Part shown: piece after piece, positions 8,071 through 60,474 of the stretch | How positions within the stretch are numbered: position 1 is the first letter of the stretch | Layout of the letters: each line of letters begins with the position of its first letter | Origin: Pseudoduganella sp. | Lineage (GTDB): Bacteria; Pseudomonadota; Gammaproteobacteria; Burkholderiales; Burkholderiaceae_D | Direction: 5' to 3' | Length of the DNA stretch: 64,000 nt | Assembly (NCBI GenBank): GCA_021323265.1 | Contig: JAJTCO010000021.1 | Coordinates: 1 to 64,000 of the forward strand | Program-made: the position numbers and the translations under genes | Notes under the pieces: model-generated | Database searches by the model: none | What the model saw: only the letters and a program-made list of their open reading frames with translations | Told to the model about the DNA's origin: nothing

Positions 8071-8248
8071 AGCGTTCCCCTAGAACTGTGTGTGGCTTTT
8101 CCCAAGTGAGCTAGCTTATTGCTAACGGCCAATTTTGTCACCCGTCGGCGGCCTGTTTTTGCTCCATCACAACAATATATCCAGTAAAAGCCATTACCTG
8201 CTCTTCAACTATACTTTTGCACAGGCGATTTGCAAGGGTGCCGACAAT

Positions 8249-8262
8249 TAGTTAGGAGTCCT
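8249..8262. promoter_or_regulatory. Operator-like repeat, copy 1 (upstream of marR)
   Basis: The 14-mer TAGTTAGGAGTCCT occurs here and again at 8944-8957. Its core AGGA-G-TCCT is symmetric. Its last base is the first base of the -35 element of the marR promoter, so a bound repressor would block RNA polymerase. Confidence 0.65.
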
Positions 8263-8289
8263 TGACATATCGTCACCGACCGCTATACT
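8262..8289 (+). promoter_or_regulatory. Strong sigma-70 promoter of marR, likely leaderless
   Basis: TTGACA (8262-8267), a 16-base spacer and TATACT (8284-8289). The ATG at 8296 begins exactly seven bases after the -10 element, the usual distance to the transcription start, and no ribosome site fits between. The messenger is therefore predicted to start on the initiation codon. Confidence 0.7.
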
Positions 8290-8295
8290 TGGCAC

Positions 8296-8919
8296 ATGGA
8301 CACGACTTCGGCCCGCATCATTTCCGCCATTTCCCGCATCGGCAGCGTGCTGCGTTCGGGCATGTGGGAATTTGCCACCAGCGAGCACCTGAACCCGGCG
8401 CAAGCCGACATCCTGCAACTGCTGCACAACCGCGCGCCGCACGGTGTGCGCCTGTCCTGGCTGGCGCGCCAGCTGTCGATTTCGGCCGCCAGCGCCAGCG
8501 ACTCGGTCGCGGCCCTGGTGGCGAAAGGCCTGGTGCGCAAGGCGCGTGCCCTGGACGATGGCCGCGCCACCGACCTGCACCTGAGCGAGGAAGGCCGGCA
8601 GGTGGCCGAGCGCATCGCCGGCGCCACCCGCTTTGCCGACGAGGCCGTGGCGGCGCTGCCGCCGCAGGCCCAGGCGCAGTTGCTGGGGGGCTTGCTGCAG
8701 CTTATCGGGCAGCTACAGAAAACCGAACGCTTCCCGGAATTGCGGGCGTGTTTGTCGTGCAAGCATTTTCAGCCGAACCGGCATCCGGACAGCGCCACGC
8801 CCCACCATTGCGGGCTGATGGACGCGCCGCTGCCGGTGGCGATGCTGCGCCTGGATTGCCCGGAGCATGTACCGGCCGATCCTGTGCAGCAGGCAAGGAA
8901 TTGGCAGGCCCTGGTTTGA
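8296..8919 (+). CDS. MarR-family regulator with C-terminal cysteine cluster
   Basis: A 207-residue winged-helix regulator. The MarR domain covers about residues 5-145 (recognition region around RLSWLARQLSISAASASDSV, wing around ARALDDGRATDLHLSEEG). Beyond the usual MarR length of about 150 there is a tail with C152-x2-C155, C172 and C188 and several histidines, which could hold a metal or act as a thiol switch; this is inference. It probably represses itself and the following AhpD-like/thioredoxin-like pair, because the same 14-bp repeat precedes both promoters. The partner genes suggest sensing of peroxides or electrophiles. Confidence 0.88.
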   Translation: MDTTSARIISAISRIGSVLRSGMWEFATSEHLNPAQADILQLLHNRAPHGVRLSWLARQLSISAASASDSVAALVAKGLVRKARALDDGRATDLHLSEEGRQVAERIAGATRFADEAVAALPPQAQAQLLGGLLQLIGQLQKTERFPELRACLSCKHFQPNRHPDSATPHHCGLMDAPLPVAMLRLDCPEHVPADPVQQARNWQALV

Positions 8920-8943
8920 GGCCGGCCTTTTTTTGGCTCTTAA

Positions 8944-8957
8944 TAGTTAGGAGTCCT
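8944..8957. promoter_or_regulatory. Operator-like repeat, copy 2 (upstream of the AhpD-like gene)
   Basis: This is the second copy of the 14-mer found at 8249-8262. Here the symmetric core extends to TAGGA-G-TCCTA. It lies 26-39 bases before the ATG of the AhpD-like gene, in the 63-base gap after marR, where its promoter is expected. Confidence 0.65.
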
Positions 8958-8982
8958 ACTTTTAATCGAAAGGAGTTTCACC

Positions 8983-9510
8983 ATGTCGCGCATTCCACTG
9001 AACACCGATGACAGCACCGGCCTGCTGGCCCAGATCCACCAGGCTTTCGGCGCCACCCCGAACATGTTCAAGGCCGTGTCCAACTCGCCGGCGGCCCTGC
9101 GCAGCATGTGGGGCAGCTTTGGCGCGCTGGGCCAGGGCAAGCTGGGGGCAAAACTGGGCGAGCAGATCGCCGTGGCGATCGCCGACCGCAACGATTGCGA
9201 ATACTGCCTGGCGGCGCATACCGCGCTGGGCCGCCAGGCCGGCGCGTCGGCCGAGGAAATGCGCGCCGCCCAGGCCGGCCAGTCCGATGATCCGAAAGCC
9301 GCTGCCGCCCTGCGTTTCGCGGTGGCCGTGGTCAGCCAGCGCGCCCAGGTCGACGATGAGCAGGTGGAGGACTTGCGCGCGGCCGGCTTCAGCGACGAGG
9401 AAGTGGTGGAAATCATGGCGCACGTGGCGCTGAACCTGTTCACCAATTATGTGAACGTGGCGTTCAAGGTGCCGCTCGATTTCCCGGGCGTGAAGCTGCG
9501 CGCCAAATGA
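8983..9510 (+). CDS. Carboxymuconolactone decarboxylase/AhpD-like peroxidase
   Basis: A 175-residue cytosolic protein of the AhpD-like alkylhydroperoxidase group in the carboxymuconolactone decarboxylase family. The active-site motif is present: C72-EY-C75 followed by H79 (CEYCLAAH), with the proton-relay glutamate E60 in GEQIAVAIA. Such proteins reduce hydroperoxides through the paired cysteines or act as small-molecule decarboxylases; the CxxC supports the redox role. AAAGGAG precedes the ATG at good spacing. Its end overlaps the next start (ATGA), so the two products are probably translationally coupled. Confidence 0.9.
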   Translation: MSRIPLNTDDSTGLLAQIHQAFGATPNMFKAVSNSPAALRSMWGSFGALGQGKLGAKLGEQIAVAIADRNDCEYCLAAHTALGRQAGASAEEMRAAQAGQSDDPKAAAALRFAVAVVSQRAQVDDEQVEDLRAAGFSDEEVVEIMAHVALNLFTNYVNVAFKVPLDFPGVKLRAK

Positions 9511-49555: not shown

Positions 49556-50554
49556 ATGGTTCGAATTTCCGATTGTATGACAATTGCCTGCGGCGCGTTG
49601 GCATTGTCCGCCGCCGTGCAGGCCACGGCAGCGCCGGCGCAACTGCCCGCAATGAAGGCGCGCGAGGCATCGATTTCCGGCCTCTCGTCCGGCGGCTACA
49701 TGGCGGTGCAGTACCAGGTAGCGTATTCGGGCAGCCTGGTTGGCGCGGGCATCATCGCCGGCGGTACCTATTACTGCGCGCGCGGCAGCATGTTGGCGGC
49801 CGTCGGCGGCTGCAAAGGCGCCGACGTGGCCGATCTCGCCGCCCTGACCCGCAAGCGCGCGGATGCCGGCCTGGTGGACCCGGTGGGCAAACTCGCCGCG
49901 CACCGCGTCTGGCTCTTCTCCGGCACCCTGGACGCCCTGGTGCCGCCGGCCACGGTGGCCGACCTGGCAAGGTATTACGCAGCCTTCATCCCATCGGCCC
50001 AGATCCAGTACAAGAACGACCTGGCAGCCGGCCATGCCATGCCGACCGACTCCTATGGCAACAAGTGCGACGCCCTGGCCGCGCCCTTCATCAGCAATTG
50101 CGGCTACGACGCCGCCGGCCAGCTGCTGCAATGGATTTACGGCCCGCTCAAGCCGCGCGCGGGCGGCGTCCCGGCTGGCAAGCTGGTGGAGTTCGACCAG
50201 TCCGAATTCCTCGCCGCCCCGACCACGCATGGCATGGCCGATACCGGATACGTCTATATCCCGCCCGGCTGCGAATCCGGCGGCGCAGGCTGCAAGCTGC
50301 ACATCGCGCTGCATGGCTGCGTGCAGGATATCGGCACCATCAAGGATACCTATGCCCGCAACGCGGGCTACAACGCATGGGCCGACAACAACCGTATCGT
50401 CGTGCTGTATCCACAGGCCGCCGCCATCGCCCCGATGCCCAATCCGAAAGCGTGCTGGGACTGGTGGGGCTACGACGACCCCGACTATTCGGTGAAAAAC
50501 GGCCGCCAGCTGCGCGCCATCAAGCGCATGGCCGACCGCCTGACGGGAGCCTGA
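49556..50554 (+). CDS. Extracellular short-chain-length PHA depolymerase (type 2 domain)
   Basis: A secreted polyhydroxyalkanoate depolymerase of about 332 residues. The lipase box ISGLSSGGYMAVQ comes soon after the signal peptide, as in type 2 catalytic domains. The acid is in FSGTLDALVPP and the base histidine in LHIALHGCVQDIG; paired cysteines (YYCARGSM, GNKCDALA, ISNCGYD) are likely disulphides. The start is uncertain: the ATG at 49556 gives a basic signal peptide (MVRISDCMTIACGALAL) and is preferred over 49577 and 49538. No substrate-binding domain follows. Its 3' end overlaps the convergent kinase gene by 35 bases. Confidence 0.88.
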   Translation: MVRISDCMTIACGALALSAAVQATAAPAQLPAMKAREASISGLSSGGYMAVQYQVAYSGSLVGAGIIAGGTYYCARGSMLAAVGGCKGADVADLAALTRKRADAGLVDPVGKLAAHRVWLFSGTLDALVPPATVADLARYYAAFIPSAQIQYKNDLAAGHAMPTDSYGNKCDALAAPFISNCGYDAAGQLLQWIYGPLKPRAGGVPAGKLVEFDQSEFLAAPTTHGMADTGYVYIPPGCESGGAGCKLHIALHGCVQDIGTIKDTYARNAGYNAWADNNRIVVLYPQAAAIAPMPNPKACWDWWGYDDPDYSVKNGRQLRAIKRMADRLTGA

Positions 50555-51794
50555 CCCGGAAGCAGGCGCCGCGCGCGCCATTCGGCAGGCATTCCACATC
50601 GCCGCCGTGGCGCCGCGCAATCTGGCGCACCAGGGCCAGTCCCAGGCCCACGCCACCCGCCTTTTCGGAGGCGCCGGGCAAGCGGTAGAAAGGCTGGAAG
50701 ATTCTTTCGCGCTCTTCCGGCGGCACGCCCGGTCCCTGGTCGCACACATCGAGCACGCAATTGCCCGGACCGGCCGCAAGCAGCACGCCGAGCGGCGCCT
50801 GGCCGCCGTGGCGCCGGGCATTCTCCAGCAGGTTTCGCACCAGGCGGCGCAGCAGGGTGGCGTCGCCGCGCACGGCGCATGCCACGCCATCCATGGCGGC
50901 ACCCAGCCGCGCGCATTCTTCGGCAACGATGCCGGTGAGGTCCACCTCATCTTGCGCCGTCGCATCGGCCGGCACGGCGTCCAGCCGGCTCGCCAGCAGC
51001 AGTTCGTCGATCAGCTGGTCCAGCTCGGCGATATTGTGCGCCAGCTCCTGCCGCATTGCCGGCTGCGCCGACTCCTGCAGCAGTTCCACCGCCATGCGGA
51101 TGCGCGCCAACGGCGAGCGCAGCTCATGCGATGCATTGGCCAGCAGCGACTTTTGCGATTCCACCAGGCCCTGGACGCGCGCCGCCGCTTCGTTGAAGCT
51201 TGCCGCCAGCGTCGCTACCTCGTCCCTGCCCTTGACCGGCACCCGTACCGACAGGTCGCCCTGGCCCCAGGCCTGCATCCGGTCCTGCAACTGCTCCAGG
51301 CCGCGCGTGATGCGCCGCACGACCGGATATGCCCCAACCGCCACCGTCAGCGCGATCATCACGAGCAGCACCAGCATGGCGGTCGTGGCGCTGTGGCGGT
51401 ACATCTTCTGTGCGACCAGCCAGCGGCCGTCGGGCAGGCGGAAGGCAAACACGGACGGAAAAGATGGCAACACGCCGCTGCCGCGCATGCCGGGATCGGG
51501 CCCGGGCAAGGGCTGGCCGACCAGGCCAAGCTGGCGGCCGTCGGCGCCATACAACGCCAGGTCCGCCTGCAGCTCGCCGCGCCAACGGGTCAGGACGCGC
51601 TGGACTTCCTCCCGGGTGGCAGTGGCGGGCAACATCCGCGCGCGCGCACTCGCGTCCACCCCGGCGAAGCCGTGCACATGGCGCGCCGGCTCGACCAGCA
51701 GGTGGATCAGGGCAAACAGCGTCGCCGCGATAACCAGGCAGGCCAGCAGTGCCGCATAGATGCGCACATACATGCGCCTGTGAAAACTACGCAT
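50520..51794 (-). CDS. CpxA-like sensor histidine kinase
   Basis: A 424-residue membrane kinase. TM1 is near the N-terminus (IYAALLACLVIAATLFALIHLLV), a periplasmic loop of about 110 residues follows, TM2 is MLVLLVMIALTVAVGAYPVV, then HAMP, HisKA with the phospho-accepting histidine in LLANASHELRSPLARIR, and HATPase motifs NLLENARRHGG, DQGPGVPPEERERIF and GVGLGLALVRQIARRHGG. The ATG at 51794 overlaps the regulator stop by eight bases. Operon order chaperone-regulator-kinase and a perfect Cpx-type box upstream suggest envelope stress sensing. Confidence 0.92.
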   Translation of the reverse strand: MRSFHRRMYVRIYAALLACLVIAATLFALIHLLVEPARHVHGFAGVDASARARMLPATATREEVQRVLTRWRGELQADLALYGADGRQLGLVGQPLPGPDPGMRGSGVLPSFPSVFAFRLPDGRWLVAQKMYRHSATTAMLVLLVMIALTVAVGAYPVVRRITRGLEQLQDRMQAWGQGDLSVRVPVKGRDEVATLAASFNEAAARVQGLVESQKSLLANASHELRSPLARIRMAVELLQESAQPAMRQELAHNIAELDQLIDELLLASRLDAVPADATAQDEVDLTGIVAEECARLGAAMDGVACAVRGDATLLRRLVRNLLENARRHGGQAPLGVLLAAGPGNCVLDVCDQGPGVPPEERERIFQPFYRLPGASEKAGGVGLGLALVRQIARRHGGDVECLPNGARGACFRVRLPSGGRPCA

Positions 51795-52515
51795 CCTGCA
51801 CCTTGGCGAAAACGTAGCCGGCGCCGCGCACAGTGATGATACGGCGCGGCGAGCGCGGATCGTCCTCGATGGCGGCGCGCACACGGCCCACGTGCACGTC
51901 GATGGAGCGGTCGAACGGCTCCAGCGAGCCGCCCTTGAGCGCTTCGATCAACTGCTCACGCGACAGCACGCGCCCGGCGCGCCTGGCTAAGGCCAGCAGC
52001 AAGTCGAACTGGTAGGCGGTCAGCGGCCGTTCCACGCCATCGACGCGCACGACGCGCGCGCCGGGGTCGACTTCCAGACGCCCGAAGCGCAGCGGCGGCT
52101 CGGCCTGCGGCGCATCGGCATCGGCCAGCGTCGGGCGGCGTAACAAGGCACGCAGGCGCGCCAGCAGTTCACGCGGTTCGAACGGCTTGGGCAGGTAGTC
52201 GTCCGCACCAAGCTCCAGGCCGATCACCCGATCCAGGGGATCGCCTTTCGCAGTCAGCATCAGCACGGGCAGGCTGCGCAGCGGTTGCGGCAGCGCGCGC
52301 AGGCGCCGGCACACTTCCAGGCCGTCGGTATCCGGCAGCATCAGGTCCAGCAGCATGGCCGAAAAATGGCCGGGTTCGGCGGCGGCCAGCCGCTCCAGGC
52401 CGGGCAAGCCGCGCTCCTCATGCACCAGGACGTAGCCGTTTTGCGCCAGGTATGTGGCAACCATGCCAGCCAGGCGCTGGTCGTCGTCGATGAGCAGTAT
52501 GCGGGGTTGGTTCAT
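51787..52515 (-). CDS. CpxR-like OmpR-family response regulator
   Basis: A 242-residue regulator. Receiver domain residues 1-120 (acidic LIDDDQ, phospho-acceptor D57 in AMLLDLMLPDTDG, lysine in DDYLPKPFEPREL) and a PhoB/OmpR winged helix at about 140-240 ending in TVRGAGYVFAKVQ. It would bind the GTAAA-N5-GTAAA box at 53143 and so control its own operon and perhaps the divergent small secreted proteins. Confidence 0.93.
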   Translation of the reverse strand: MNQPRILLIDDDQRLAGMVATYLAQNGYVLVHEERGLPGLERLAAAEPGHFSAMLLDLMLPDTDGLEVCRRLRALPQPLRSLPVLMLTAKGDPLDRVIGLELGADDYLPKPFEPRELLARLRALLRRPTLADADAPQAEPPLRFGRLEVDPGARVVRVDGVERPLTAYQFDLLLALARRAGRVLSREQLIEALKGGSLEPFDRSIDVHVGRVRAAIEDDPRSPRRIITVRGAGYVFAKVQDA

Positions 52516-52573: not shown

Positions 52574-53071
52574 TTAGTGGCCGTGCATGTGGCTCGTCGC
52601 CATCATATGCAGGCCGTGGTTGAACATTTCACGCTGCTCGACGGTGAGGATGTCGGCGGCGTCCATGGCCGACTGCAGCACGCGGCGCGACATCTGATCC
52701 ATCGTCTGCACCTGCCGCGAGCGCACCACTTCGAGCGACGCACGGTCGATGGTCGGTTCAAGCAGCATCTTGGCCATCTTCTCGTGCCCTTCGCGCAATT
52801 GCTGCTGAATTGCCTGGACATCCTTCAAACAAGATCTCGCGATCTCGCCCAAGCGAGCCTTCTGCTCCAGAGTGCCGTTTTCCAGCACGTGCGCAACGAT
52901 CATGGAGACATGCTTGTCGGCCTTGGCAGGATCGAACTGCCATTTTCCATGACCATGGCCATGGCCCATCGTGCTGCCCGCGAAGGCGGTGGTAGCGGTG
53001 GCGCCTGTCGCGGCGAGGGCGACGAAAGCGAGGGCGAACCAGTGACGGCGCAGTTTGTGCAGGTGTTTCAT
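52574..53071 (-). CDS. Spy/CpxP-like periplasmic chaperone
   Basis: A 165-residue periplasmic protein. Signal peptide of about 31 residues, then a histidine-rich HGHGHGKWQF segment and an all-helical Spy/CpxP-like body (KADKHVSMIVAHVLENGTLEQKARLGEIARSC, later ADILTVEQREMFNHGLHMM) that contains the LTxxQ-type motif. Histidines at both ends could bind metal. In Cpx systems such proteins restrain the kinase and help folding. It is the first gene of the chaperone-regulator-kinase unit, 58 bases before the regulator. Confidence 0.88.
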   Translation of the reverse strand: MKHLHKLRRHWFALAFVALAATGATATTAFAGSTMGHGHGHGKWQFDPAKADKHVSMIVAHVLENGTLEQKARLGEIARSCLKDVQAIQQQLREGHEKMAKMLLEPTIDRASLEVVRSRQVQTMDQMSRRVLQSAMDAADILTVEQREMFNHGLHMMATSHMHGH

Positions 53072-53278: not shown

Positions 53279-53473
53279 ATGAAAAAAGTCATCGCCACCA
53301 TGATCGCCGGCCTCTTCGCAAGCGCCGCATTCGCACAACAAGCTCCTGCACCTGCAGCACCGGCTGCACCAGCGTCCCAGGAAGTAAAGGCTGAAGCGAA
53401 AGCCGAAGTCAAACAGGAAGTAAAGCAAGAGGTCAAGCAGGAGGCGCAAAAGCCGGCTGCCGAGAAGAAGTGA
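53279..53473 (+). CDS. Small exported Ala/Pro/Lys-rich protein (first of tandem pair)
   Basis: A 64-residue protein. The signal peptide is MKKVIATMIAGLFASAAFA (19 residues). The mature part has no fold motif: an Ala/Pro stretch followed by repeated EVKAEAKAEVKQEVKQEVKQE heptad-like units and a lysine end. It is very similar in its signal peptide to the next protein, so the two are paralogues. GAGG precedes the ATG at 53279. Mature length of 45 residues and charge suggest a small periplasmic or secreted polyampholyte; function unknown. Confidence 0.75.
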   Translation: MKKVIATMIAGLFASAAFAQQAPAPAAPAAPASQEVKAEAKAEVKQEVKQEVKQEAQKPAAEKK

Positions 53474-53525: not shown

Positions 53526-53822
53526 ATGAAAAAGACCATCGCTACCCTGATCGCCGGCCTGTTCGCCACCGCTGCATTCGCATCCACTCCGGCCCCTGCA
53601 CCGGCGCCGGCCGCAGCCGCTGCCGCATCGAGCAGCAGCGCCAAGGCTGAAGTGAAGGCCGAAGCCAAGGCCACGACCAAGAGCGCGCAAAAAGACACCA
53701 AGAAGTCGGAAAAACCGGCTGAAACCAAGTCCGAAGTGAAGGCGAGCCCGGCCCCGACCACGGCCGCGGCGCCTGCACCGGCAGCAGCTGCGACCCCAGT
53801 CCCAGCGCCAGCCGCCAAGTAA
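53526..53822 (+). CDS. Small exported Ala/Pro/Lys-rich protein (second of tandem pair)
   Basis: A 98-residue protein. The signal peptide MKKTIATLIAGLFATAAFA differs from the first at only five of 19 residues. The mature part is Ala/Pro-rich, then KAEVKAEAKATTKSAQKDTKKSEKPAETKSEVK and an AP-rich tail, resembling a histone-H1-like tail but exported. A 52-base gap follows the first gene. No terminator is seen before the converging FAD gene, which ends seven bases away. Confidence 0.75.
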   Translation: MKKTIATLIAGLFATAAFASTPAPAPAPAAAAAASSSSAKAEVKAEAKATTKSAQKDTKKSEKPAETKSEVKASPAPTTAAAPAPAAAATPVPAPAAK

Positions 53823-53829
53823 TCCCCTG

Positions 53830-55440
53830 CTAACCGCGCAGTGCCCGCTGCGCTGCGCGGTATCCCCACCAGGAGGCTTCTTCGAAGACGGAGAAGCCGC
53901 TCAAGTCCGAATGGGCGAACAGCACCGGCCCGTCCATCTCCCGCAAAGCACGCAAGCTCGCATCGCTCCGGAATCCCGGCCTCGGCACCGCCATGGCGTG
54001 ACCGCGCAGCGTGATGTCCACGCGTTCCACGCAACTCTCGAACTGCATGCCGTATGCCGCGCGCAGATCCTCGCTTGCCAGCGCCAACAGCTCTTCACCG
54101 CTCGCCGTCATCATCCATTTGCGCGCCTCGCGCGGGTCGCGGCCGGACAGCGCGACATAACTCGTGAACACGGTCTTTTCCGGTGGCGCCACGCGGATGT
54201 CCTGGTGCGTGGAGACGACATAGCCCAGGCCTTGCGTGCCATGCACCACGTTGTCCCACGCAAGCGGCGCATCCGGCAGTTCATGAGGAAAGCGCTTCAT
54301 CAGGAAGTTCGCCACCATCCATGGTGCGTGAATTTGCCTGTGGACATCCGGCATGTTTTCCACAACCCTTGCGGCGACATGCAAGGGCATCGCGCAGATC
54401 ACCCGGCGCGCCCTGATGGTGAAGGTGCGCGCCACGCCATGCTCGAGCGCGAAACAGAGCACTTCGGTATTGCGGCCTCGGGCAGCGCCGGCCATGGTCC
54501 GCAGCCGCACGGCGCTGCCCGCCAGCCGCCGTGGCCGCGCCAGGCGCTCCATGCCGCTCGCCAGCGCCTGCAGGCCCTCCGGCCACGTCAGCCAGGCGCC
54601 CTGCTCCGCATTCTCGGCCACTCCGCCGCGACCGCAGAAGTAATGCAGCCCCGCCCAGGCCGACACGTCGTTCATGCCCGCGCCATAGTCGTCGCGGCAG
54701 CAGTAGTCCAGGTACCACAACAAGGACGGAGCGCGATAGCCCTGTTGCGCCACCCACGCGCCAAAGTGCATCGTATCCAGCCGCGCCGCCGCCGCATCCA
54801 TCGACGAACGTTCGCTCGGGAACGTGAACCGGCGCCGTCCGTCCGCCCCGACCGCGGCGCGCAGCACGTCGATCTGCGCGAAGAAGCGCTGGTGTTCTGC
54901 CAGCTCCTGCGCCGGCACGCCCTCATGCGGCAACACGCCTTCCTGCCAGGCGCCCTTGTACAGCAAGCGGTCCTCCGGACCGTGCAGCACGAAGCGTTCG
55001 TCATAAGTGGGCTTGGGCGCATCCGCCCCACGCACGATCACGCCCAGGTCGGCCAGCAGCTCACGCACGTGAAAGCAGTCCTCGGTCGGCAAGGGCAGGT
55101 AGTGCGCCCCGGTCGGGTAGGCCAGGCTGCCATGTTGGCCGCCAGCCGCATTGCCGTACGGTTCGGGGCCGTCGAGCATCAGGAAATCGTCCTGCCCTTC
55201 CTTGCGCATTTTCCACGCCGCCGTGAGGCCCGCAACGCCGGAGCCAAGGATCAGCACGTCGGTGGACAGGGACTGCGAGGGCGCCGGCAACGGCTTGCGG
55301 TCGCGCAGGAAATGCCCCGCGTCGCGCCCCGGCGCGTGCACCACCGGCGTGATTTCGCGCCAGCGCAGATAACCCGCCACGCTGGCCGCCGCGGTGGCGC
55401 CGCTGGCCACGGCCCAGGCCAGGAACGAACGCCGCAGCAT
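53830..55440 (-). CDS. Tat-type FAD-dependent oxidoreductase (amine-oxidase-like)
   Basis: A 536-residue flavoprotein. The N-terminus carries LRRSFLAWAVASG, a twin-arginine-like signal, followed by a dinucleotide-binding loop DVLILGSGVAGLTAAW (about residues 61-76) and PEPYGNAAGGQ. The long middle and the C-terminal FAHSDLSGFSVFEEASWWGYRAA close the FAD site, as in NAD(P)-binding amine-oxidase-like proteins. It is downstream of the spermidine-synthase-like gene, sharing one base with it (TGATG-type junction). A role in polyamine oxidation is an inference from context; no substrate residues are recognised. Confidence 0.85.
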   Translation of the reverse strand: MLRRSFLAWAVASGATAAASVAGYLRWREITPVVHAPGRDAGHFLRDRKPLPAPSQSLSTDVLILGSGVAGLTAAWKMRKEGQDDFLMLDGPEPYGNAAGGQHGSLAYPTGAHYLPLPTEDCFHVRELLADLGVIVRGADAPKPTYDERFVLHGPEDRLLYKGAWQEGVLPHEGVPAQELAEHQRFFAQIDVLRAAVGADGRRRFTFPSERSSMDAAAARLDTMHFGAWVAQQGYRAPSLLWYLDYCCRDDYGAGMNDVSAWAGLHYFCGRGGVAENAEQGAWLTWPEGLQALASGMERLARPRRLAGSAVRLRTMAGAARGRNTEVLCFALEHGVARTFTIRARRVICAMPLHVAARVVENMPDVHRQIHAPWMVANFLMKRFPHELPDAPLAWDNVVHGTQGLGYVVSTHQDIRVAPPEKTVFTSYVALSGRDPREARKWMMTASGEELLALASEDLRAAYGMQFESCVERVDITLRGHAMAVPRPGFRSDASLRALREMDGPVLFAHSDLSGFSVFEEASWWGYRAAQRALRG

Positions 55441-56951
55441 CAGCGCATCACCCTGCGCCAGTCCTGCTCGAACTCATGCACGAGCGATTGCGTGTTGAGG
55501 CGATTGGGCGCCATCGACAGCGGCTTCATGTCCGGCGGGAAGCTGAACATCTCGCGCGTGGTCTGCGCATTCAGGAAGCGCATCGGCAGGCGGTAGGTTT
55601 CGGGCGGCTTGTAGTCGAGCTGTGGGGAGGCCATGATGAAGCCCCACTCTCCGAACGACGGCACGTACACGTGGTAAGGCCAGGTGCGCAGGCCCACTTC
55701 GTGCAGGGTGGCATTGATAGTCCAGTAGGCATGTGGCGCGAAGAACGGCGAGGTCGATTGCACCACCATCAGGCCGTTGGCCGCCACGTGCCTTTTCAGC
55801 ACGCCGTAGAACGGCACCGAATACAGCTTGCCGAGCGCGAAGCTGGAGGGATCGGGGAAGTCGACGATCGCCGCATCGAACATGTCCTGGTTATGCTGCA
55901 GCCAGACCGCCGCGTCGGCGTTGACCACCCGCACGCGCTTGTCGCGCAGCGCGCCCTGGTTCAGTGCCACCAGTTCATCGCGCTGCGCGAAGGCCGCCGT
56001 CATCGCCGGGTCCAGATCCACCAGCGTCACGTGTTCAACCTGTGGATAACGCAGCACTTCGCGCAGCGCCAGTCCATCGCCGCCGCCCAGGATCAGCACG
56101 CGCTTGGCCCAGGGCAGCGCCTCCATCACCGGGTGCACCAGGGCTTCGTGATAGCGGTATTCGTCGCGCGTGGAGAACTGCAGGTTGCCGTTGATGTAGA
56201 GCCGCAGGTCGTCCTTCCATTTCGTGATCACCAGGCGCTGGTAGGGCGTGCTGGTCGAGTACACGATCTCGTCGCCGAACAGGCTCAGTTCACCCCAGCC
56301 GGTGAGCCGGTCGGCGCCGCTGAAGCCGATCACCAGCGCCAGCATCACCGCGCTGGCACGCAGCAGGCGCCCTGTCACATTCGCAAGCTCTGTGCGAAAC
56401 ACGTAAATTGTCCACAGGGCGACGCCGATGTTGAGCATGCCGAACAGGAAACCCGTACGCACCAGCCCAAGCTGCGGCGCCAGCACCAGCGGGAAGAGCA
56501 GCGACACCGCGAGCGCGCCCAGGTAGTCGAACGTCAGCACCCGGCTGACAAGTTCGCTAAATTCCGTCTGGCGCGCATTCAGGGCCCGCATCACCAAAGG
56601 GATCTCCATGCCCACCATGGCGCCGACCAGGAATACCATGGTGTAGAGCAGGGTGCGAAACGGCGCCGCCGCCCACGCATAGGTCATGAACAGCACCGCG
56701 GCCGACACGCCGCCCACCAGGCCCACCGCCAGTTCGATATCGACGAAGCGCGCCAGCACGTCTTCATCCTTCACGTACTTGGAGAAGTGCGCCCCCACGC
56801 CCATCGCGAACAGATAGCAGCCGATGATGGTGGAGAACTGCAGGACCGAGTCGCCCAGCAGGTAGCTGGAAAGCGCGCCAGCGATCAGTTCATAAGCAAG
56901 CCCGCATGACGCGACAACGAATACTGAAACGATGAGAATCTTTTTGGTCAT
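55440..56951 (-). CDS. Membrane-anchored spermidine-synthase-like aminopropyltransferase
   Basis: A 503-residue protein. The N-terminal about 210 residues hold six to seven transmembrane helices of the spermidine-synthase-associated type (GLAYELIAGALSSYLLGDSVLQFS). The C-terminal about 290 form a soluble aminopropyltransferase domain: STPYQRLVITKWKDDLRLYINGNLQFSTRDEYRYHEALVHP, LILGGGDGLALREVLRYP (decarboxy-AdoMet site), TLVDLDPAM and AIVDFPDPSS. It should transfer an aminopropyl group to a polyamine-like acceptor at the membrane, though some members have lost activity. Its SAM-decarboxylase partner is encoded on the opposite strand at 60115. Confidence 0.92.
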   Translation of the reverse strand: MTKKILIVSVFVVASCGLAYELIAGALSSYLLGDSVLQFSTIIGCYLFAMGVGAHFSKYVKDEDVLARFVDIELAVGLVGGVSAAVLFMTYAWAAAPFRTLLYTMVFLVGAMVGMEIPLVMRALNARQTEFSELVSRVLTFDYLGALAVSLLFPLVLAPQLGLVRTGFLFGMLNIGVALWTIYVFRTELANVTGRLLRASAVMLALVIGFSGADRLTGWGELSLFGDEIVYSTSTPYQRLVITKWKDDLRLYINGNLQFSTRDEYRYHEALVHPVMEALPWAKRVLILGGGDGLALREVLRYPQVEHVTLVDLDPAMTAAFAQRDELVALNQGALRDKRVRVVNADAAVWLQHNQDMFDAAIVDFPDPSSFALGKLYSVPFYGVLKRHVAANGLMVVQSTSPFFAPHAYWTINATLHEVGLRTWPYHVYVPSFGEWGFIMASPQLDYKPPETYRLPMRFLNAQTTREMFSFPPDMKPLSMAPNRLNTQSLVHEFEQDWRRVMR

Positions 56952-57015
56952 TTGGGCGCTTATGCTCTAATATGTTTCTTTGCTAACAAGTTTGTCACTT
57001 TAACCGGGGATCGAC

Positions 57016-57402
57016 GTGAACGCCATCCTAAATTATCTGGTCCACCTGGCACTTGCCGCGTTGCTGCTGGTTGTATTCTTCAAGGCCTATACCTGGCTGA
57101 CGCCATACAATGAAGTACAGCTGATCCGGCAAGGCAACCACGCGGCCGCATTTTCCCTGGGCGGCGCCCTCCTGGGCTTCTCGCTGACGATCGCTTCCAG
57201 CATCCTGCATACGAATAGTGTGCAACAGTTCCTCGGCTGGGCTTTCGGCGCCATGATCGTCCAGGCGCTCGGTTACGCAGTGACCACGCGCTGCCTGAAA
57301 ATGGCGCAAGACCAGATCGAGGCCGACAACAGCGCCTTCGGCGGCCTGCTCGGCACTATTTCGCTTTCCATCGGCGGCATCAACGCCGCTTGCATTTCCT
57401 GA
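57016..57402 (+). CDS. DUF350 (YjfL-like) membrane protein
   Basis: A 128-residue inner-membrane protein with four hydrophobic helices. NYLVHLALAALLLVVFFKAYTWLTPYNEVQLIRQGNHAAAFSLGGALLGF is the DUF350 hallmark; DNSAFGGLLGTISLSIGGINAACI closes it. The family recurs beside SPFH, PspA-like and glutathionylspermidine-type genes, function unknown. The GTG start has a GGGGATC ribosome site. It leads a five-gene rightward unit divergent from the aminopropyltransferase by 64 bases. Confidence 0.92.
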   Translation: MNAILNYLVHLALAALLLVVFFKAYTWLTPYNEVQLIRQGNHAAAFSLGGALLGFSLTIASSILHTNSVQQFLGWAFGAMIVQALGYAVTTRCLKMAQDQIEADNSAFGGLLGTISLSIGGINAACIS

Positions 57403-57421
57403 ACCTGAAAGAGGTCACATC

Positions 57422-58468
57422 ATGGGTATCGGCAGCTTTATCAAGAAGCAGTTTATCGACGTACTGCAATGGAACGAGGAGACGGAAGGCGTACTGTCCT
57501 GGCGCTACCCGATGCAGGACTTCGAGATCCAGAACGGCGCCGTGCTGATCGTGCGCGAGTCGCAGATCGCGGTATTCGTCAACGAAGGCCAGATCGCCGA
57601 CGTGTTCGGCCCGGGCACGCACAAGCTCACCACGCAGACCCTGCCCGTGCTGACCAACCTGAAAAACTGGGACAAGCTGTTCGACTCGCCGTTCAAGTCG
57701 GACGTGTACTTCTTCAGCACCCGCGTGCAGACCGGACGCAAGTGGGGCACCCCGCAGCCGATCACGATCCGCGACAAGGATTTCGACATGATCCGCGTGC
57801 GCGCGTTCGGCATGTACTCCTACCGCGTGACCGACCCGCGCAAGTTCTTCACCGAATTGAGCGGCACCCGCGACACCTACACCCGGGAAGACGTGGAAGA
57901 CCAGCTGCGCGGCATCCTGCTCGCCTCCATGGCCAATTCGCTGGGCGCCTCGCAGATCGCCTTCCTCGACATGGCGGCCAACCAGGCCCTGATGGCACAG
58001 GAAGTCAAAGGCGGCCTGGCTGACGCCTTCGCGCGCTACGGCATCGGCCTGGACGAGTTCAACGTGGCCAGCGTCAGCCTGCCGGAAGAACTGCAAGCGG
58101 CGCTGGACGAGCGCATTTCCGCCGGCATGAAGGGTGGCCTGGGCGCCGACAAGATGGCCGGCTACACCAAATACCAGGTGGCGCAATCGATCCCGCTGGC
58201 CGCCAGCAACGAAGGCGGCCTGGCCGGCATTGGCGCCGGCCTGGGCGCCGGGCTCACGGTCGGCCAGGTGATGGGCCAGGCCATGGGCCAGGCACTGCAG
58301 CCTGGCGCGGCCCCGGCGCCAGCCGCGCCGGCCACCCCCGCCCCACCGGCGCAGGAGTCCATCGAAGACCGCCTGGGCAAGCTCAAGGCATTGCTGGACA
58401 AGGGCCTGATCTCGGCAGCCGACTATGACGCCACCAAGGCCGAACTGCTGAAAAAACTGATCGGATAA
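57422..58468 (+). CDS. SPFH-domain protein with C-terminal SHOCT motif (YdjI-like)
   Basis: A 348-residue protein of the YdjI/virion core group of SPFH (stomatin/flotillin-like) proteins. The SPFH domain spans about residues 25-230 (SWRYPMQDFEIQNGAVLIVRESQIAVF onwards, FGPGTHKLTTQTLPVLTNL), followed by a Gly/Ala/Gln linker and a C-terminal SHOCT-type hairpin (DRLGKLKALLDKGLISAADYDATKAELLKKLI). SPFH proteins oligomerise into membrane-bound scaffolds. Likely it assembles a cap on the inner membrane for the DUF4178 and DUF350 partners. Confidence 0.92.
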   Translation: MGIGSFIKKQFIDVLQWNEETEGVLSWRYPMQDFEIQNGAVLIVRESQIAVFVNEGQIADVFGPGTHKLTTQTLPVLTNLKNWDKLFDSPFKSDVYFFSTRVQTGRKWGTPQPITIRDKDFDMIRVRAFGMYSYRVTDPRKFFTELSGTRDTYTREDVEDQLRGILLASMANSLGASQIAFLDMAANQALMAQEVKGGLADAFARYGIGLDEFNVASVSLPEELQAALDERISAGMKGGLGADKMAGYTKYQVAQSIPLAASNEGGLAGIGAGLGAGLTVGQVMGQAMGQALQPGAAPAPAAPATPAPPAQESIEDRLGKLKALLDKGLISAADYDATKAELLKKLIG

Positions 58469-58478
58469 TCCAGGCCGC

Positions 58479-59960
58479 ATGCAAACCGTTTCCTGCCCAA
58501 GCTGCGGCGCAGAAGTCAAATTCCGCTCGCACGCCTCCGTCATGGCGGTGTGCGAGTACTGCAACACGCGCGTGCTGAAGGAAGCCGGCGCCGTCAAGGA
58601 CCTGGGCAAAATTTCCTCGGTGCTGGAGGACTACTCCCCGATCCAGATCGGCACCAGCGGCGTGCTGGGCGGGCGCCATTTCGATGTCGTGGGCCGCATC
58701 CAGCTGCGTTACGACGCGGGAATGTGGAACGAGTGGTACATCATCTTCGACAACGCCACCAGCGGCTGGCTGGGCGACGCCTCCGGCCAGTTCACGGTGA
58801 CGATGCTGCGCACGCCCGACGGGCAGTTGCCGTCCTTTGAGGAGCTACGGGCCGGCCAGCGCTACACCCTGATCGGCGAACCGTACATGGTGGCCGACGT
58901 CAGGACCGCCCAGTGCATCGGCGGGCAAGGCGAACTGCCGTTCAAGGTGGGCGACGGCTGGGAAGCCAAGGTCGCCGACTTCCGCCAGTCCGGCCATTTC
59001 CTGACCATCGACTATTCCGACGAGGGGCCGCCGCTGCTGTACACCGGCGTCGCCGTCACGCTGGAGAGCATGCAATGCCAGCTGCTGCGCGATGCGGAGG
59101 AAATCAAGCGTACGACGGGCCGCTATCGCGGCAAGCTGGACGCATTGGAATGCCCGAACTGCGGCACCCAGATCAAATACCTGCCGGGCCTGACGGCTAA
59201 CCTGGTCTGCCAGTCCTGCCAGTCGCAGATCGACGCCGCCAGCCCGAAAGCGCAGGTGCTCGCCAAAGGCGAACAGCACGACAAGGAATACTTTACCCTG
59301 CCCCTGGGCGCCAGCGGCAAGCTTGGAAACCAGGACTTCACGATCATCGGCGTCATGCGCCGTGCCGACGACGAAGGCAGCGGCTGGACCGAGTATCTGT
59401 TGTATGGCGCCCGGCACGGCTTCACCTGGCTGGTCGAGGCGGAAGAAGGCTGGTCGCGCGCCAACGCCATGGACCTGTGGCCGGTGTCCATGGGACTGGG
59501 CGCCACCGAGGTCACGCTGGACAAGGCCGACTACCCCAAGCTGTACGACTACAACTCCGTGGTGACCTACGCCGCCGGCGCCTTCAACTGGCGCGTCCAG
59601 GTGGGCGATCACACGCATGTGTACGAATACAAGCGCCAGCAGGTTGTCCTGGCCGCCGAAGCGACTGCCAGCGAAATTGGCTGGTCGCGTTCCACGCCGG
59701 TGGCCTGGGACCAGCTGAAGGCCTGGTTTGGCGACGCCGTGAAAGGCACGGCGCCGGCCGCCCGCGGCAGCGTTGCCCAGGATTTCAGCAAGGACCGTTA
59801 CAAGCGTTCGGCCAAGAACTGGATCATGGGCATGGTGGCGCTGAACGCCATCCCGCTGCTGTTCAATTTTGGCGGCACCATCGGCTATACCCTGCTGGCG
59901 GCGGCGGCGCTTTACCTGCCGGCCATGCTGCTGGATGCAATCGACGACAAACAAAAATGA
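58479..59960 (+). CDS. DUF4178 protein with two zinc ribbons and C-terminal membrane segment
   Basis: A 493-residue protein. Zinc ribbon 1: C6-x2-C9 and C25-x2-C28 (CPSCGAEVKF, CEYCNT). Two DUF4178 domains of about 130 residues each (start LGGRHFDVVGRIQLRYDAGMWNEWYIIF; the second around LGNQDFTIIGVMRRADDEGSGWTEYLLY). Zinc ribbon 2 lies between them at about 225-250 (ECPNCGTQIKYLPG, CQSCQS). Two C-terminal helices (IMGMVALNAIPLLFNFGG, YTLLAAAALYLPAMLLDAI) anchor it in the membrane. The domains have no proven activity. Its stop overlaps the next start (ATGA). Confidence 0.9.
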   Translation: MQTVSCPSCGAEVKFRSHASVMAVCEYCNTRVLKEAGAVKDLGKISSVLEDYSPIQIGTSGVLGGRHFDVVGRIQLRYDAGMWNEWYIIFDNATSGWLGDASGQFTVTMLRTPDGQLPSFEELRAGQRYTLIGEPYMVADVRTAQCIGGQGELPFKVGDGWEAKVADFRQSGHFLTIDYSDEGPPLLYTGVAVTLESMQCQLLRDAEEIKRTTGRYRGKLDALECPNCGTQIKYLPGLTANLVCQSCQSQIDAASPKAQVLAKGEQHDKEYFTLPLGASGKLGNQDFTIIGVMRRADDEGSGWTEYLLYGARHGFTWLVEAEEGWSRANAMDLWPVSMGLGATEVTLDKADYPKLYDYNSVVTYAAGAFNWRVQVGDHTHVYEYKRQQVVLAAEATASEIGWSRSTPVAWDQLKAWFGDAVKGTAPAARGSVAQDFSKDRYKRSAKNWIMGMVALNAIPLLFNFGGTIGYTLLAAAALYLPAMLLDAIDDKQK

Positions 59961-60118
59961 ACAAATTCCTGGGCTATGCATTGGCGGTGACCGCCATGAG
60001 CGTGATCACCAGCTGGACCAGCTGGGTCAGCGGTCCCTCGACCGGCAGCGGCTATCGCGGCAGCAGCTGGTCTTCCAGCTCGGGCAGCTGGGGTGGCAGC
60101 GGCGGAGGACATAAGTGA
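59957..60118 (+). CDS. Tiny membrane or exported Gly/Ser-rich protein
   Basis: A 53-residue product that overlaps both neighbours by four bases (ATGA and GTGA), the same coupling as the rest of the operon, so it is probably a real gene. It has one hydrophobic segment (MNKFLGYALAVTAMSVITSW) followed by a Gly/Ser/Trp-rich tail (GYRGSSWSSSSGSWGGSGGG). I do not recognise it. It may be a small component of the SPFH/DUF4178 complex. Confidence 0.65.
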   Translation: MNKFLGYALAVTAMSVITSWTSWVSGPSTGSGYRGSSWSSSSGSWGGSGGGHK

Positions 60119-60474
60119 GCGCACACCAACCTAATGGCACGCACCTGCTGGCCGACATGTCCGGCATTGCGCCGGACTTGCTGGCCGACTGCGCAAGGAT
60201 TGAGCAGTTGCTGCGGGCGGCCGCAACGGCGGCGGGCGCGCACGTGCTGCACAGTCACTTCCACGGCTTTGGACCCGGCCTCGGCGTGACCGGCGTCGTG
60301 CTGCTGGCCGAATCCCACATTTCGATCCACACCTGGCCGGAAAGCGGTTTCGCCGCCGCCGACATTTTCATGTGCGGCGCCTCCCAGCCCCATGTCGCGC
60401 TGGAAGTCATCGAAGACGCCCTGCAGCCCGAATGCTCCGAAGTGCGCAGCATGGAGCGCGAACCGCCGAATTGA
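60115..60474 (+). CDS. speD: S-adenosylmethionine decarboxylase proenzyme
   Basis: A 119-residue pyruvoyl-dependent decarboxylase that supplies decarboxylated AdoMet for aminopropyl transfer. The self-cleavage site LLAESHISIHTWPE places the pyruvoyl precursor at S67 after E66, with H72 and C87 (FMCGAS) as the expected catalytic partners. The length fits the short bacterial SpeH-type class. It starts at a GTG overlapping the previous stop (GTGA). It is the natural supplier for the aminopropyltransferase at 55440-56951. Confidence 0.93.
   Translation: MSAHQPNGTHLLADMSGIAPDLLADCARIEQLLRAAATAAGAHVLHSHFHGFGPGLGVTGVVLLAESHISIHTWPESGFAAADIFMCGASQPHVALEVIEDALQPECSEVRSMEREPPN

Follow-up and report, generated by a model that had tools for sequence, protein, structure and literature searches.

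The gene cluster

We analysed a divergent gene cluster that encodes a candidate membrane aminopropyltransferase (APT), the S-adenosylmethionine (AdoMet) decarboxylase SpeD, and a small protein whose C-terminal lysine is a candidate acceptor of the aminopropyl group. It lies in a stretch of 64,000 nucleotides, called the window below, from Pseudoduganella sp. (GenBank assembly GCA_021323265.1, contig JAJTCO010000021.1, positions 1 to 64,000 of the forward strand). The genome of the window, G000, is 83% complete. An earlier note on this DNA, made from the letters alone, had described seven genes in two divergent, tightly coupled units. All seven open reading frames (ORFs) were confirmed at 53830..60474 of the window, two on the minus strand and five on the plus strand. 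The genes, positions, orientations and tight junctions are as described there, with ORFs and Pfam and NCBIfam matches in agreement. The features are as follows (aa, amino acids; FAD, flavin adenine dinucleotide).

53830..55440, minus strand: FAD-dependent amine-oxidase-like enzyme, 536 aa, with twin-arginine N-terminus MLRRSFL; PF01593, PF13450
55440..56951, minus strand: membrane APT, seven predicted transmembrane helices and an APT domain with DFPDP motif
56952..57015, no strand: divergent intergenic region of 64 bases between both units
57016..57402, plus strand: DUF350 membrane protein, 128 aa, GTG start; PF03994, E 2.2e-32
57422..58468, plus strand: SPFH (Band_7_1) protein with C-terminal SHOCT, 348 aa; PF13421 and SHOCT
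58479..59960, plus strand: DUF4178 protein, 493 aa; PF13785 in two stretches, two CxxC pairs, hydrophobic C-terminus
59957..60118, plus strand: predicted one-helix protein, 53 aa, with Gly/Ser tail ending GGGHK
60110..60115, plus strand: C-terminal His-Lys codons CAT AAG, directly before the stop codon of the small protein
60115..60474, plus strand: SpeD, class 1b AdoMet decarboxylase, 119 aa, GTG start; TIGR03330

The FAD and APT genes overlap by 1 base, and the gaps between DUF350 and SPFH and between SPFH and DUF4178 are 19 and 10 bases. The 53-aa ORF shares 4 bases with each neighbour, at its start with the end of DUF4178 and at its end with the start of SpeD. Scans of the locus for promoters (1 promoter-like site vs 1.2 in shuffles) and terminators (6 terminator-like sites vs 7.3 in shuffles) gave no excess.

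Conservation of the cluster

The comparison covered 23 further fetched loci from the GTDB genus of the window, 399 genomes from its order and 249 from the phylum. In the order, APT genes were sought with the window protein as the query at E <= 1e-40. The order and orientation of the six large genes are identical in all 23 genus loci. Among the loci examined, 36, counting the window, contain SpeD in the stretch, and in each of them it is preceded by a small ORF that ends alike. The congener G011 has no DUF4178, SpeD or strong APT, all three being absent together. Within the order, DUF4178 and APT were each found in 69 of the 399 genomes, and both lists are identical. SpeD occurs in 68 of these 69 genomes vs 72 of the 330 others; the one exception among the 69, G422, is a draft assembly in roughly 680 contigs. 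In the phylum, DUF4178 was found in 18 genomes (17 above the cut-off) and APT in 28, including all 18. A contig scan with a single protein query produced 16 loci, 15 of them from close relatives.

The earlier note had proposed one module with co-conservation beyond close relatives, and the conserved order in the genus and the identical lists in the order bear this out. It had named APT and FAD genes found mostly without the SPFH unit as evidence to the contrary. In the order this does not apply, APT being accompanied by DUF4178 in 69 of 69 genomes; in the phylum it applies in part, as 10 of the 28 APT genomes have no DUF4178 match. In seven of these ten, the match to the window APT is confined to roughly the final two thirds of the protein, which marks them as distant forms. 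A chance neighbourhood was rejected on the conserved gene order and the genome-level coupling: the seven genes are one conserved cluster, which is probably an envelope module.

In 68 fetched loci of the order, the stretch contains DUF4178 in 67, APT in 56, SPFH in 53, FAD in 52, SpeD in 39 and DUF350 in 33 cases; all these counts are minimum values, because a stretch or contig may end before a gene is reached. They point to a core of APT, DUF4178 and SpeD, with SPFH and the flavoenzyme usual and DUF350 optional.

Two unusual arrangements were observed. A SpeD-SpeE fusion of 399 aa is encoded at L058:7508-8707 in a genome of the same order without DUF4178 (G038). In G028, extra genes between DUF350, SPFH and DUF4178 (L055:6445-6777 and 8083-9161) encode a repeat protein that by eye resembles a bactofilin, and three small proteins.

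A small protein with an invariant C-terminal lysine

The 53-residue Gly/Ser protein is the key part of the cluster, which the earlier note passed over. The protein has no Pfam or NCBIfam match, and none of its six relatives found bears a function name. In 18 pairs of small ORFs, the numbers of substitutions at codon positions 1, 2 and 3 are 85, 48 and 228. As substitutions are mostly at the third position, the ORF is very likely a real gene; a spurious ORF was rejected on this bias and on the conserved end across loci. The middle of the protein varies and the last two residues are constant.

We surveyed the tails of 107 DUF4178 proteins of at least 300 aa, leaving out that of the window, and counted as a partner any ORF whose start lies between -60 and +900 bases from the DUF4178 stop. 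The His-Lys end is fused to DUF4178 itself in 12 of the 107 and lies on a separate ORF of 45-71 aa in 90. Two of the remaining five, L097 and L101, have a His-Lys ORF beside SpeD, that of L101 being on another contig of the same genome (L153). The partner ORFs of the other three end in GRIK (L089, L090) or, by eye, FSGK (L150). Thus His-Lys is found in DUF4178 or its partner in 104 of 107 cases, and lysine without histidine in the partner in 3. The C-terminal lysine is invariant in DUF4178 partners.

Among controls, a His-Lys ORF was found near 3 of 1070 random positions and, in a narrower window (+300), near none of the 406 stop codons taken from other genes of the cluster. In a set of 16825 ORFs, 109 have a His-Lys end, partners counted, and 703 a lysine end. 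By family, C-terminal lysine occurs in 1 of 100 APT, 14 of 87 FAD, 0 of 89 SPFH, 0 of 81 SpeD and 0 of 70 DUF350 proteins. The terminal lysine is encoded by AAG in 49 cases and AAA in 42, and both histidine codons are also used. The use of both lysine codons argues that the protein, not the DNA, is under conservation. Two loci, L125 (G493) and L146 (G634), have two DUF4178 genes flanking SpeD, with the His-Lys tail fused in one and on a separate protein for the other.

An out-of-sample set, chosen after the lysine had come into consideration, consisted of the ten phylum APT genomes without DUF4178 and of G208; the tails were read by eye. Seven of the ten have a predicted exported neighbour ending in lysine: one-helix proteins ending in GPGSGK (L162, L164), and proteins with lipobox-like signals ending in RRGK, SRGK or FGGK (L165, L166, L167, L170, L171). 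The neighbour protein in G208 (L172) ends in HGGK. In PspA-type clusters (L082-L085) there are one-helix proteins ending in RGGK or HGGK, and the partners in L087 and L092 end in RSGK and RRGK. A membrane protein similar to Peptidase_M50B is encoded between SpeD and the lysine-ended lipoprotein in G080 (L167:12572-13246).

The N-terminus of the small proteins is net-positive in 85 of 90 cases, so that the tail is predicted to be outside; the lysine-ended lipoprotein versions are also predicted to lie outside the membrane. An odd number of helices at the C-terminus of DUF4178 goes with a fused tail (10 of 12) and an even number with a separate one (84 of 95; Fisher p 5e-7), by a hydropathy count that is crude and made on related proteins, with L081 and L120 scored as exceptions. 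This parity rule supports a periplasmic tail and is not a proof of it. Overall, the tail of the small protein is predicted to face the periplasm. No mention of the C-terminal lysine was found in the available part of PMC11237479 or by searches of open-access PMC papers, where absence does not imply absence in print.

Predicted membrane aminopropyltransferase

The APT protein scores 683.6 bits with NF002956 (PRK03612; curated cut-off 472) and fails the spermidine synthase equivalog TIGR00417 (125.8 bits, cut-off 249.55). Its GGGDG and DxPDP catalytic motifs are invariant in 16 diverse members. Such proteins are common: at least 7998 matched at E <= 1e-20. Seven helices were predicted both by hydropathy and in an AlphaFold model built from a diverse alignment (pLDDT 84.9), which replaced a first model with weak helices (pLDDT 67.5). 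Lysine and arginine average 11.3 on the N-terminal side of the membrane and 2.2 on the other side, the N-terminal side being higher in 16 of 16 proteins. By the positive-inside rule this excess places the catalytic domain outside, and the APT domain is thus predicted to face the periplasm. Residues E21, E116, R122, D142 and N174, in or near the helices, are invariant in all 16 proteins. In a fold search, the matches listed cover or span the APT domain, and none listed is to the helical domain alone, which has no bearing on how that domain is folded.

Two other Spermine_synth-like proteins of G000 were read and have no DxxDP motif. On these two, a second true aminopropyltransferase in the genome was rejected; another three matches of G000, all weak, were left unread.

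SpeD and other cluster proteins

SpeD scores 129.1 bits with TIGR03330 (cut-off 75.65). Its residues S67, H72 and C87 align with S63, H68 and C83 of the Thermotoga maritima protein (1tlu) and are kept in the compared homologues; in T. maritima these are the pyruvoyl serine and the catalytic histidine and cysteine (PMC10407285, in the part available). That paper marks one proline as dividing true AdoMet decarboxylases from arginine decarboxylases. The proline of WPE is kept in all compared SpeD proteins, that of FGP is not. SpeD is predicted to supply decarboxylated AdoMet (dcAdoMet). The earlier note stated that no putrescine-making gene was present; this holds at the locus and not for the genome, where an Orn/Lys/Arg decarboxylase (PF01276) is encoded outside the cluster, at G000:C52. 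The cluster-less congener G011 also has a PF01276 decarboxylase.

The flavoenzyme matches PF01593 with 27.3 bits (cut-off 19.8). Its best matches of solved structure are an aminooxidase (2b9w), protoporphyrinogen oxidase (2ivd) and spermidine dehydrogenase SpdH; LSD1 and FMS1 are also matched. The twin-arginine pattern RRx[FLM] is present in 79 of 87 homologues. Of the eight misses, five have RR by eye (L076, L077, L112, L128, L144) and three (L080, L109, L135) are ambiguous owing to the start chosen. The enzyme is predicted to be exported by the twin-arginine (Tat) system and thus periplasmic.

The SPFH-SHOCT protein has no transmembrane segment by hydropathy, and a sequence search against solved structures gave no match for it at 0.01. 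For the DUF4178 protein the same kind of search, at a threshold of 0.1, gave two weak matches to eS27 ribbons. Of the two zinc ribbons ascribed to it in the earlier note, the CxxC pairs are present in the sequence, and the Pfam matches are below the cut-off.

Candidate mechanism

We suggest that APT aminopropylates the 53-residue protein at its invariant C-terminal lysine, with SpeD supplying dcAdoMet, in a probable envelope module; we give this reading a probability of roughly 0.4. SpeD would make dcAdoMet, and APT would move the aminopropyl group onto the lysine of the tail, so that the product would be protein-bound N6-(3-aminopropyl)lysine. Lysine could replace putrescine as the acceptor because its side chain is an aminobutyl amine. 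The dcAdoMet would have to cross the membrane, perhaps via the helical domain of APT, in which charged residues are invariant. With APT as the writer, the Tat-type amine oxidase could be the eraser, its target being the secondary amine; LSD1 and polyamine oxidases act on secondary amines. The SPFH-SHOCT and DUF4178 proteins may form a scaffold at the inner face, where they would sense membrane stress and keep the tail in place, by analogy with YdjI, YdjG and YdjH, which hold PspA in Bacillus subtilis. The full writer and eraser pair at the envelope, with N6-(3-aminopropyl)lysine made by APT on a periplasmic tail and removed by an exported LSD1-like oxidase, is a possibility that we put forward tentatively.

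We know of no established substrate for the membrane relatives of APT. The invariant lysine that most of the examined clusters have at the end of a predicted exported partner is a concrete candidate acceptor. If the proposal is correct, this would be, to our knowledge, the first aminopropyltransferase acting on a protein. It would give a purpose to polyamine-independent SpeD, define a new covalent protein modification, and tie polyamine chemistry to the SPFH/PspA envelope-stress machinery. Nothing on aminopropyl-lysine or protein aminopropylation was found among open PMC papers, where absence does not imply absence in print.

Several observations weigh against the modification of the tail by APT. 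The main difficulty is that a periplasmic APT would require dcAdoMet outside the cytoplasm. The aminopropyl-lysine modification itself is a proposal built on sequence data. The orientation of APT was derived by the positive-inside rule, with loop limits of our own choice, and one loop placed inside, that from helix 2 to helix 3, is also acidic (D+E 3.88 vs K+R 2.61). APT keeps the usual catalytic residues, and the enzyme nearest to its APT domain takes its name from free triamines and agmatine, so the acceptor may still be a free amine.

As regards the tail, histidine is absent in 3 of the 107 cases and in the PspA-type tails, and the lysine end is not exclusive to it, being shared by 14 of the 87 FAD proteins. 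The 107 proteins are not independent: 33 come from the genus of the window or its nearest named relatives, and most of the others from 17 families of the order, with few from other classes. Three APT loci without DUF4178 showed no lysine tail, namely L163, where APT is at the contig end, L168 and L169. In 11 genomes of the order APT lies outside the fetched DUF4178 stretch, yet elsewhere in the genome. In one of these 11, G246, the APT frame (G246:C2:82727-84208) has one in-frame TGA, and the DUF4178 gene with its His-Lys tail is retained there. Finally, in the 68 loci of the order, APT was not found in the stretch in 12, FAD in 16, SpeD in 29 and DUF350 in 35 cases; the eraser is thus not obligatory.

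Alternative explanations

APT may instead act on a different envelope molecule, for example the head group of a lipid, an amine in peptidoglycan or a small metabolite; the role of the lysine tail would then be only to dock or position the complex. The available part of PMC11237479 proposes aminopropylation of further substrates, and the invariant charged residues in the helical domain of APT suggest a transported one. The wide variation of the tails apart from the terminal lysine is compatible with a docking motif. However, such a motif need not be the final residue, yet lysine is last for 107 of 107 DUF4178 proteins or partners, and also in the lipoproteins of other APT clusters. We consider this explanation doubtful.

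The earlier note had proposed a polyamine system. A predicted membrane APT with SpeD fits that proposal; the word polyamine is doubtful, as related operons are linked to PspA and may have other substrates (PMC11237479, available part). In its strict form the proposal means membrane-bound synthesis and oxidation of a spermidine-type polyamine, with the tail protein as an accessory. It agrees with the catalytic residues kept in SpeD and APT, with the PF01276 decarboxylase elsewhere in the genome, and with the profile of the flavoenzyme, which matches SpdH and the polyamine oxidase FMS1. On the other hand, APT falls well below the spermidine synthase cut-off, yet well within the membrane family, and the available part of PMC11237479 cites a paper on SpeD gene linkages with a polyamine-independent role in its title. 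The lysine end and the coupling with DUF4178 are left unexplained, and this reading is unlikely.

The hallmark of Braun's lipoprotein Lpp is that a short envelope protein is bound to the wall through its C-terminal lysine. The tail could likewise be anchored covalently to peptidoglycan and tether the SPFH complex, with aminopropylation modulating this or being separate. Besides the lysine shared with Lpp, this would suit the lipoprotein versions, which end in lysine too, and the mutants of the analogous YdjG and YdjH, in which wall synthesis is mislocalised (PMC8581546, available part). It does not explain the coupling with APT and SpeD, and we find it improbable. Production of a diamine by a neofunctionalised SpeD decarboxylating ornithine or arginine is very improbable: such homologues are widespread, but no other SpeD was found in the genome and this one is paired with an APT, which is the reverse of the published search criterion (PMC10407285, available part), it keeps the Ser, His and Cys and the WPE motif, and the genome already has the PF01276 decarboxylase.

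Comparison with known systems

Li and co-workers reportedly described in 2019 a pair of AdoMetDC and MFS::SpdSyn, in which the APT carries a fused membrane domain and its neighbour is a class 1b SpeD, and are said to have named no acceptor. In contrast, the window cluster contains a candidate acceptor with an invariant C-terminal lysine. PMC11237479 refers to Li et al. on such linkages of AdoMet decarboxylase genes.

The PspA-CesT/Tir operons of groups 2 and 3 (Ravi et al. 2024, PMC11237479) share with the window cluster the 7TM-spermine synthase, DUF350, DUF4178 and a lipoprotein, and the available part of that paper mentions a variant with band-7 and SHOCT, AdoMet decarboxylase and polyamine oxidase. 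This type of neighbourhood is already in print, and the lysine-ended candidate acceptor is the new part. Unlike those operons, the window cluster has no PspA; PF04012 was found in 1 of 25 genomes, and not in G000, at its 83% completeness. The SPFH protein of the window also has no 2TM region of the kind described there for its counterpart.

In Escherichia coli, YgiB-YgiC and YjfIJKLM-YjfC likewise combine an envelope partner with a low-complexity C-terminal tail and polyamine chemistry, and the yjf operon contains DUF350. YgiB and YjfM, whose genes neighbour those of annotated peptide-spermidine ligases, have tails with Gly-Gly as the last residues, whereas the window tail ends in lysine and the enzyme there is an APT. 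Peptide-spermidine ligase activity was reportedly described by Pederick in 2023. No SpeD or APT was found in the two E. coli ygi and yjf stretches examined, and the ATP-grasp ligase PF03738 (YjfC group) was found in none of the 25 genomes. In a parallel that is our own and untested, the ligase systems would attach a polyamine to a carboxyl end, and the APT systems would build one on lysine.

In the pspA-ydjGHI system of B. subtilis (PMC8581546) an SPFH protein is held at the membrane by adjacently encoded membrane partners, as proposed here; unlike the window, the available passages name no polyamine genes. Matches to the triamine/agmatine aminopropyltransferase of Thermus thermophilus (1uir, 3anx) start at residue 215 of the APT model at the earliest, and the helical domain has no counterpart there. 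Lpp and the 53-aa protein have the C-terminal lysine in common, but the latter has no lipobox cysteine (the window protein is cysteine-free; some relatives have one).

Genes next to the cluster

Two small signal-like proteins rich in Ala, Pro, Lys and Glu, apparent paralogues, are encoded on the plus strand immediately before the cluster (53279-53473 and 53526-53822 of the window). Of 15 named close-relative loci, just 6 have them beside the cluster (L060-L064, L072), and of the 23 genus loci just 2 (L032, L038); given this patchy occurrence we place them outside it. Further upstream, on the minus strand, lie genes for an LTXXQ/Metal_resist protein (52574-53071), which we take to be similar to Spy/CpxP, a response regulator (51787-52515), and an ORF resembling a sensor kinase by eye (50520-51884). 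Together they possibly form an envelope-stress two-component system adjoining the cluster.

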